Source of the DNA: a virus
Length of the DNA stretch: 29,074 nucleotides
Strand: one strand, 5' to 3'
Virus record (IMG/VR): IMGVR_UViG_3300046000_001663
Span: 1-29,074 of that record
Shown here: positions 25,414 to 26,764 of the stretch, one piece after another
How the letters are laid out: each line of letters opens with the position of its first letter
Numbering within the stretch: the stretch's first letter is position 1
Made by a program: the position numbers and the translations under genes
The notes under the pieces: model-generated
What the model saw: only the letters and a program-made list of their open reading frames with translations
The model's database searches: none
What the model was told of the DNA's origin: nothing

Positions 25414-25421
25414 TATATTTG
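25414..25421 (+). promoter_or_regulatory. Possible -7 promoter box TATATTTG
   Basis: It matches TAnnTTTG. A start of transcription near 25427 would give either a short leader before the HNH gene or a transcript of about 90 bases ending at the hairpin at 25475-25506. Confidence 0.4.
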
Positions 25422-25474
25422 TCTCATGCGCAAGATTACTGTTAGACATAGGATTGATTTAAGGTTTAGTAATT

Positions 25475-25518
25475 CCCCTCTGAACGGGCGCATACGTTCT
25501 TTGGGGTTTTATTGTTTT
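25475..25518 (+). terminator. Hairpin with T-rich tail (terminator or end of a small RNA)
   Basis: CCCC-TCT-GAACG (25475-25486) and CGTTC-TTT-GGGG (25495-25506) pair in two blocks around a three-by-three internal loop, with an eight-base terminal loop. TTTTATTGTTTT follows. This looks like an intrinsic terminator for a short transcript or an attenuator before the HNH gene. Confidence 0.55.
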
Positions 25519-25650
25519 AAGACATGAATAGCACTCACTACCTGAGTAAGTCAAAGCTCAGTAACCAATGACTACACTTGCATCACATCAATGCTTGGAA
25601 CGAGCAACTGCTCTTATTGAGCGTGAACATTTGTTTTTCTTGGGGGAGCT

Positions 25651-25704
25651 TTTTCTTTTCTTTCTTTTTCTTTTTACCTTTTTTCTTTTTCTTTCTTTTC
25701 TTTT
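25651..25704. repeat. Perfect 25+25 nt homopyrimidine mirror repeat (H-DNA-type)
   Basis: Left arm 25651-25675 and right arm 25680-25704 contain only T and C and are exact mirror images (same order read outward: T5 C T5 C T3 C T4 C T4), with ACCT between them. Mirror-symmetric homopyrimidine tracts are the classic form for an intramolecular triplex under supercoiling. It ends four bases before the likely ATG of the HNH gene. Confidence 0.9.
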
Positions 25705-25708
25705 GTTT

Positions 25709-26182
25709 ATGATTAAATCTACTGCTAATAATAAGCTAAGATCTGCTAAGAAGCAGATACTAAGTATACTGCTAAAGCAATATGCTATTAGAGTTAAACC
25801 TGGTATTAAGTTAAAGGTTTACTTTAAAGAGTTCTTAGCTTTAAATAATTTGACTGCTCCAACAAATAAGAAACTAAATGAGTACATTATAGAATTATTT
25901 GATAGTGCTGATTTTGATTTGATAGGAGCTAACTATGATAGAAATTATAGCCCATCTGATTTAAAGAAATTTAGGGTGCAATTAGTAAAAATGTATGGAG
26001 AAAAATGCATGTGCTGCAATTCAACTGAGCACATATCGGTAGACCATATTAAGCCTTATTCATTGTACAAACAATTATCTTTAGATTTGGATAATTTACA
26101 ACTACTATGTAGATCATGTAACAGTAAAAAGTCTAATAAGCATTCTACTGATTATAGGCCATTAGCTAATAGCATAAGCTAA
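25709..26182 (+). CDS. HNH endonuclease with zinc-binding Cys pairs
   Basis: A 157-residue protein from ATG 25709. The C-terminal part is a classic HNH: EKCMCCNSTEHISVDHIKPY (C100, C103, H113) and LDLDNLQLLCRSCNSKKSNK (N129, C134, C137, then H145), where two CxxC pairs bind structural zinc and the D-H pair and final N/H form the active site. The N-terminal half is Lys-rich and helical. The frame is open upstream to 25568, but that part passes through the pyrimidine mirror repeat and would be an unlikely Phe/Leu run, so I choose 25709. It lies between control DNA and late genes, as a free-standing homing or packaging nuclease could. Confidence 0.8.
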   Translation: MIKSTANNKLRSAKKQILSILLKQYAIRVKPGIKLKVYFKEFLALNNLTAPTNKKLNEYIIELFDSADFDLIGANYDRNYSPSDLKKFRVQLVKMYGEKCMCCNSTEHISVDHIKPYSLYKQLSLDLDNLQLLCRSCNSKKSNKHSTDYRPLANSIS

Positions 26183-26410: not shown

Positions 26411-26764
26411 ATGATATTAATACCAGCACAGCTCGAAGCAGTAACTACACGAAAAGATAAGACTTTAAAGCTTACTTTTGGCACTAATGAGCTCACACCA
26501 TCTCAAGCAGCTGAACTGTTCGGAATAGCCAACCAGTTCGGTTACTTAGCTTTTAAAGATGAAAGCTTCAGACGTGAGGAGCTGGATGCTGTGGAAAGCT
26601 TGAAATCAGAGTTAGAAGATACTTTAAAGAAGCCATCACAAAGATTGAGGGGTATTTTATTTAGATGTTATGAAGCTGATTCAGAGGGATTTACTACATT
26701 TGCTAAATACTATGACTCTAAGATGGAGCAGTTAATAACACATTTTAAGAATAAGTTAGCGTAA
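26411..26764 (+). CDS. Conserved hypothetical protein upstream of terminase small subunit
   Basis: A 117-residue protein: ARKDKTLKLTFGTNEL-like start (TRKDKTLKLTFGTNELTPSQ), AAELFGIANQFGYLAFKDES, KSELEDTLKKPSQRLRGILF and FAKYYDSKMEQLITHFKNKL. The pattern is one I associate with conserved genes next to the small terminase in Bacteroidota phages, but no function is known to me. It ends in a TAATG overlap with the small terminase gene, so the two are translated together. A packaging or head-related accessory role is plausible. Confidence 0.65.
   Translation: MILIPAQLEAVTTRKDKTLKLTFGTNELTPSQAAELFGIANQFGYLAFKDESFRREELDAVESLKSELEDTLKKPSQRLRGILFRCYEADSEGFTTFAKYYDSKMEQLITHFKNKLA

Follow-up and report, generated by a model that had tools for sequence, protein, structure and literature searches.

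Organization of the locus

The window analyzed here, meaning the whole stretch of DNA, is a 29,074-base IMG/VR virus record, and the closest named phage to its TerL protein is Flavobacterium phage 11b (46%). On its + strand, the window contains two 25-nt arms (25651-25675 and 25680-25704) that are exact mirror images of each other around a central ACCT (25676-25679), with each arm reading T5CT5CT3CT4CT4 outward from the center. The perfect homopyrimidine mirror repeat reported in the original prediction was therefore confirmed on the window sequence, with no mismatch, and the tract does end four bases (GTTT) before the ATG of an HNH gene at position 25709, as had been stated. Judging from comparison of sequences, a conserved, putative noncoding RNA, which we call module A, has the mirror repeat as its 3' element; this RNA is read from the + strand, spans ~165 nt (25540-25704), and is represented by 95 distinct copies in IMG/VR phage contigs. 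Module A is composed, in order, of helix Pa, a pseudoknot formed from the Pa loop, helix Pb, hairpin Pc, a G-run, and the two arms around a tetraloop. The features of the locus are listed here with their positions in the window.

25414..25421, + strand: Bacteroidetes-type -7 promoter element TAnnTTTG, TATATTTG, kept at the head of most copies
25426..25506, + strand: 5' domain, an H-type pseudoknot followed by a T-rich stretch; P1 and P2 change on both strands in relatives
25542..25561, + strand: helix Pa (CTGAG 25542-25546 with CTCAG 25557-25561), paired in 94 of 94 copies
25550..25572, + strand: pseudoknot Pk (GUC 25550-25552 with GAC 25570-25572), paired in 94 of 94 copies
25577..25597, + strand: helix Pb (CUUG..CUUG base, GCA/UGC stem), with double changes at two pairs
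25610..25622, + strand: hairpin Pc (GCTC/GAGC), found as GCUC/GAGC, ACUC/GAGU, GCCC/GGGC, UUCGC/GCGAA and others
25642..25649, + strand: conserved G-run GGGGGAGC before the arms, in nearly all copies (exception L124, GTATATG)
25651..25675, + strand: left pyrimidine arm, exact in 30 of 30 CTGAG-type copies and, in diverged copies, still in register with the right arm
25676..25679, + strand: ACCT tetraloop, replaced by AAAC, TAAC, ACCC, CCCT or CTCT in relatives
25680..25704, + strand: right pyrimidine arm, on the same basis as the left arm
25709..26182, + strand: HNH endonuclease gene (Pfam HNH, 4.5e-12), a separate insertion 3' of the arms

The usual place of module A is after genes encoding VRR-NUC, a small sigma factor (Pfam Sigma70_r4_2) and g183, and before g117 and TerS (phrog_309), and this position is kept down to 20-35% protein identity of some of the neighbors. 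The conserved gene that follows the RNA, g117 (26411-26764), has no match in Pfam or PHROG. Its relative in Cellulophaga phage phi19:1 is located between the ERF and NinG recombination genes, a neighborhood that suggests a role for g117 in recombination.

The mirror repeat is a genuine feature of many phages and is separable from the HNH gene

Elsewhere in the window the longest mirror arm is 10 nt, compared with 8-12 nt in simulations (20 order-1 Markov windows), and the longest other run composed only of pyrimidines or only of purines is 18 nt. Given two arms that each contain 21 T and 4 C, the probability that the order of bases matches is, by arithmetic alone, ~1/12650. Relatives of the locus were fetched by HNH-protein and TerL searches. 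In the clade to which the window belongs (the CTGAG-type copies), the exact 54-nt tract is present in 30 of 30 distinct contexts that were anchored on the neighboring hairpin, not on the tract, and it is exact even though an 88-nt stretch of the module differs by 12.6% on average among those same 30 copies. An assembly artifact, which the original prediction had named as one outcome that would undo it, is ruled out by these hairpin-anchored contexts and by the occurrence of the identical 54 nt in many contigs of different metagenomes.

We also searched for copies of the tract in hosts and prophages. An exact 29-mer of the tract was not found in GTDB contigs, and the 24-nt right arm gave 44 matches, all of them in unrelated low-complexity contexts. 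There was no match in 395 genomes of the phylum of G001, which is a weak negative because that set includes no positive control genome. A perfect mirror pyrimidine tract of a different form, 4C5C3C4C6 around GCTTC, was seen in L289 (positions 120-190), where no module A comes before it and the surroundings are unrelated.

Many contigs end at or near the arms. One of them, 3300021963_000491 (L161 and L248), has a 127-nt terminal overlap across the tract, and for this contig we considered and rejected a genome end at the tract, as the overlap looks instead like an assembly k-mer on a circular map. It is consistent with a circular map that was broken at a k-mer common to many strains.

The identical tract precedes all eight close HNH homologs (86-100%). 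In many contigs fetched with TerL, however, the tract is present and HNH is absent, with the arms running into GTTGATGTTAATTAACT. Because most tract-bearing relatives are without HNH, we consider the gene to be an insertion just 3' of the arms, and the proposed link between tract and gene did not hold. In about eight relatives HNH (window 25705-26182) is positioned directly 3' of the ultraconserved arms, and it may be a homing gene that uses the conserved arm junction as its target. Coding through the tract (ORF 25568-26182) was also rejected, since L006, L024, L054 and L055 have lost the ATG and the reading frame is shifted by a one-base indel.

Module A is a structured RNA supported by compensatory base changes

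In an alignment of 15 diverse copies, the 16 pairs of module A are formed in 233 of 233 cells, and 9 of the 16 pairs have changed on both sides. None of 500 shuffles reached this level of covariation, and controls in which the structure was slid along the alignment pair at 21-40%. These compensatory changes, which go beyond chance, establish the RNA structure, and module A is almost certainly a structured RNA. Helix Pa occurs as CUGAG/CUCAG, CUUCG/CGAAG, CUGCG/CGCAG, CCGCG/CGCGG and UCUCC/GGAGA, while Pk occurs as GUC/GAC, GGC/GCC, GCC/GGC and GAC/GUC, such that its middle pair takes all four Watson-Crick types, with double changes in 7/15. U•G intermediates are found on the + strand in Pa (in L285) and in Pc (as GCUU/GAGC); together with the TAnnTTTG kept at the head of the module, they are indirect signs that module A may be transcribed. 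Since TAnnTTTG by itself occurs at chance frequency in the window, it is the conservation in place that constitutes the evidence. A promoter-like element is located directly before module A in L274, and a near match (TATATTTA) is present in L300. No intrinsic terminator was found downstream of the arms.

Most copies of module A are preceded by a 5' domain whose pseudoknot stems are, in the window, ATGCGC (25426-25431) with GCGCAT (25488-25493) and CCCC..GAACG (25475-25486) with CGTTC..GGGG (25495-25506). These stems are hypervariable yet complementary across phages (GUCAAACC/GGUUUGAC, AUGCGC/GCGCAU, GUUGAGAU/AUCUCAAC), and T-runs come after them (window 25414-25506). The domain is optional, because it is absent in L274 and L300 and because in L267 a tRNA-Leu (taa; 2575-2652) is located immediately upstream of module A, replacing the pseudoknot domain; L268, L269, L319 and L326 have tRNA-like sequences at the same place that were not called by ARAGORN.

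The architecture of the 5' domain recurs in sister phages whose corresponding locus carries, in place of module A, an unrelated, ornate RNA of ~285 nt, which we call type B. Type B was found in 24 TerL-fetched loci (for example, L038:12138-12422 and L045:7026-7310), and it has a long closing helix and 87 predicted pairs, 9 of which have changed on both sides. Its best resemblance in Rfam, to Betaproteobacteria-1 RNA (E 5e-4), is below gathering. None of the TerL-fetched loci contains both module A and type B. A pac/cos or origin DNA site at the tract is disfavored, because the tract is missing from type B phages, whose gene order is the same.

We built a covariance model on the helices of module A, leaving out the arms, and it finds diverged copies in L285, L313 and L266 (~1e-13 or better), L300 (1e-5) and L274 (4e-5), as well as in L312, and the arms are present after each one of these distant copies. 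Similarly, in the loci fetched with TerL, a sample that carries no bias toward the tract, arms follow 17 of 17 module A copies and occur in 0 of 24 type B loci; the tract is seen there only together with the RNA structure. A weak match to module A in L386 (7752-7861; E 0.03) has no arms and represents either chance or a copy that lost them.

Rfam contains nothing that matches at gathering score in 16 loci, the GOLLD and ROOL families included, and an E-value search of the window region returned chance-level matches only. Module A has no DNA match among the named phages in INPHARED, and it is absent from phages 11b and phi10:1 and from the examined regions of phi19:1 and ctuNt529. Module A is a previously undescribed class of RNA, and the uncultured phages that carry it form a large group.

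The arms face each other in register

The T/non-T mirror register of the arms is 20-27 nt in every listed variant outside group A3. Its mean over all copies is 21.3 nt, versus 8.3 nt when arms are swapped between copies, a control that is descriptive and not a probability; the copies are related, so that independent events are few. Several of the arm changes are clade-specific. The inner T-runs, outward from the loop, are 5/6 in the window's clade, 6/7 in the L266 clade and 4/5 in the L107 clade, with ACC between them in all three, and the loops of other clades (AGC, AAAC, AAC, ACCC) come with a matching adjustment; the effective loop is almost always 4 nt, and is 3 nt (AGC) in one clade. In the A3 copies, the inner pattern differs on both arms (3C3C2G4C5 and 4C3G2C4C4C3) and the cap is GUG-CUUA-CAC, and in one of them (L135) both inner runs are longer by one, 3/4 having become 4/5. 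Two further concerted changes come from copies that were retrieved independently of the arms: the innermost C•C has become A•G or A•A in L384-L393, with both arms changed, and both arms of L387/L388 have four units instead of five. Across relatives, a facing C•C is replaced by G-C, C-G, A•G or A•A; the A•G and A•A clade contradicts a rule that C changes only to G, which we dropped.

Relatives therefore show what the original prediction had proposed to look for, the same mirror symmetry with changed bases, and because they hold the register with altered lengths and bases, its argument that the symmetry exceeds simple low complexity is borne out. Mirror symmetry, as read from these comparisons, is under selection, and the arms are selected to face each other antiparallel, such that U-runs lie across from U-runs and single C's across from C or G. 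It is very probable that the two arms lie opposite each other and are important as RNA. Energy-based folding, a method that cannot score triplexes, gave no stable U/U duplex and is uninformative for the arms.

H-DNA requires mirror symmetry as well as a pure homopurine-homopyrimidine tract. Of the original interpretation of the tract as an H-DNA mirror repeat, the symmetry survives in relatives and the purity does not: C has changed to G in the pyrimidine strand, with register kept, in L104, L166, L144, L201, L195, L193 and group A3, and A is present in that strand, again with register kept, in L384-L393. No register-keeping C to T changes were seen in the recovered arms. Because symmetry is kept, purity is lost and U-runs remain opposite U-runs, selection appears to preserve two facing U-rich strands and not an H-DNA-capable duplex. 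Because the tract comes after a covarying RNA structure, the unit of selection appears to be RNA; single-stranded DNA is less likely to be the form in which the strands are preserved. The window copy itself may be able to form H-DNA in a supercoiled plasmid, though this is not the conserved property.

Possible functions of the facing arms

We propose that the arms act as RNA, forming a long hairpin, designed like a tandem ENE, in which U-rich internal loops alternate with C•C or C-G steps and the two facing U-strands would clamp an A-rich strand into a U•A-U triple helix in the major groove, as in the ENE. Such a clamp would protect the 3' end of module A or would capture an A-rich RNA of the host or phage. 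Module A would probably be an abundant infection-stage RNA that is produced from its own promoter and is interchangeable with type B RNA. Taken together, a conserved RNA with facing arms and a proposed clamp is the best explanation overall, one that we hold with evenly balanced confidence. Clamping of an A-strand by the arms, considered as a separate step, is a tentative proposal. More speculative still is its fullest form, that of a widespread phage RNA class with a 3' pyrimidine-pyrimidine hairpin of ~25 steps that would clamp A-rich RNA (a tail or host message), would be an ENE counterpart several times longer, and would be swapped with type B.

Among specific mechanisms we rank the clamp first, with a protein-bound U-rich hairpin close behind, because facing U-strands are the hallmark of the ENE and pyrimidine triplexes are possible in RNA. 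The window contains no A/G-rich partner strand except the tract's own complement, the best other match being 18/25, and the C•C and A•G steps that occur every 3-6 nt would break a triplex unless the partner has G at those positions. As either arm can carry a G, one fixed purine partner could not fit every variant. An RNA hairpin bound by protein, either a U-rich binder from the phage or the host or else a factor of the phage itself, would account for the absence of a purine partner in the window, since the facing geometry would then serve the fit of a protein with no third strand. It would also explain why C changes to G or A while the U-runs stay and why the arm sequence is invariant in the window's clade, and the CUUG/CUUG base of Pb has the same design of U•U between C-G pairs. 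However, no candidate protein is tied to module A alone, as g117 and TerS also flank type B loci, and we regard protein binding as possible but doubtful.

It is unlikely that module A is a cis-acting leader of the g117/TerS operon (an attenuator, a stabilizer or a translation control element) in which the U-rich arms would pause polymerase or gate the next start codon. Such a function is compatible with the location of module A on the same strand and at a fixed place upstream of g117/TerS in most loci, with the start of g117 within tens of nt after the arms in A3 loci, and with the terminator-like T-runs after the 5' pseudoknot. In many phages, however, HNH, g70 or other genes lie between module A and the operon, type B replaces module A, and we know of no ligand-like conserved core in module A. 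Even less probable is a tether in cis, by which nascent arms would bind, as a clamp, the purine strand that is the template of their own gene, in an RNA•DNA-RNA triplex or R-loop, and so mark the locus for replication or packaging near TerS. Although the window offers no matching purine strand other than the tract's own complement, the arms co-vary with each other and not with an external target, and the site adjoins terminase genes, G in both arms of the A3 copies breaks both strand assignments, type B phages manage without the tract, and rU-dA hybrids are weak. H-DNA acting as a transcription or replication switch, an intramolecular DNA triplex formed under supercoiling, has the least to recommend it and is quite improbable: the mirror register is conserved, and the window copy is a pure homopurine-homopyrimidine mirror repeat whose few C's make H-DNA possible at mild pH, but the pyrimidine strand of relatives has acquired G or A without loss of register, C to T changes that keep register would be harmless and yet are missing from the recovered arms, the tract accompanies the RNA structure throughout the unbiased sample, and type B phages have the same surrounding genes without any such tract.

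If the clamp that we favor does form, then stabilization or capture by an RNA triple helix extends to phages, and if a protein binds the arms, they belong to a previously unrecognized RNA-protein pair of phage infection. The mirror repeat is of interest as a probable clamp-like RNA structure, and not as a DNA curiosity before a nuclease gene: it is a 50-nt element in which evolution retains two facing pyrimidine strands rather than ordinary base pairs. The exchange of module A and type B at one locus lets one ask what job two unrelated RNAs share.

Comparison with known systems

The phi29 pRNA is a structured phage packaging RNA. Module A is like it in being a structured phage RNA, here near terminase genes, but it has no Rfam packaging-RNA match, both terminase subunits are carried, and an unrelated RNA can replace it. 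With H-DNA repeats and the bacterial intrastrand triplex repeats BoxC/PIT/TMECO, module A has in common a triplex-type pyrimidine or purine repeat (PMC4666352). In module A, by contrast, the purity of the arms is not kept and an RNA structure precedes them, and TMECO repeats lie in chromosomes and have been reported to lack any association with phages; RNA, too, can adopt triplexes of the pyrimidine type (PMC4666352). Module A also resembles GOLLD and ROOL, which are phage-borne structured RNAs often located near tRNAs, and it shares with GOLLD a variable 5' part and a conserved 3' part (PMC12286853). It is ~165 nt long, however, compared with 659 to over 800 nt for GOLLD/ROOL, and facing U/C arms are not described for those RNAs (PMC12286853).

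The arms are most similar to the ENE of KSHV PAN RNA, with which they share a stem-loop in which two U-rich strands face each other, close to the 3' end of a noncoding RNA from a virus; in module A, the facing of the strands is supported by the register and by concerted changes, and the fold itself is predicted. The MALAT1 triple-helix element bears the same likeness to the arms, and we know of no bacterial RNA of this form. The ENE captures poly(A) with a U-rich loop, forming a U•A-U triple helix, and blocks decay (PMC4246217), whereas the window contains no A-rich tract or poly(A) tail that would complete such a helix. The arms differ from the ENE further in that they are interrupted by C•C and C-G steps, contain, where the ENE has a single short internal loop, five U-tracts in each 25-nt arm, lack flanking canonical stems except for the GUG/CAC cap in A3, and belong to phages and not to a eukaryotic virus. 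By the tests made, module A is a member of neither group; it is near the GOLLD/ROOL-like RNAs in kind and near the ENE in design.
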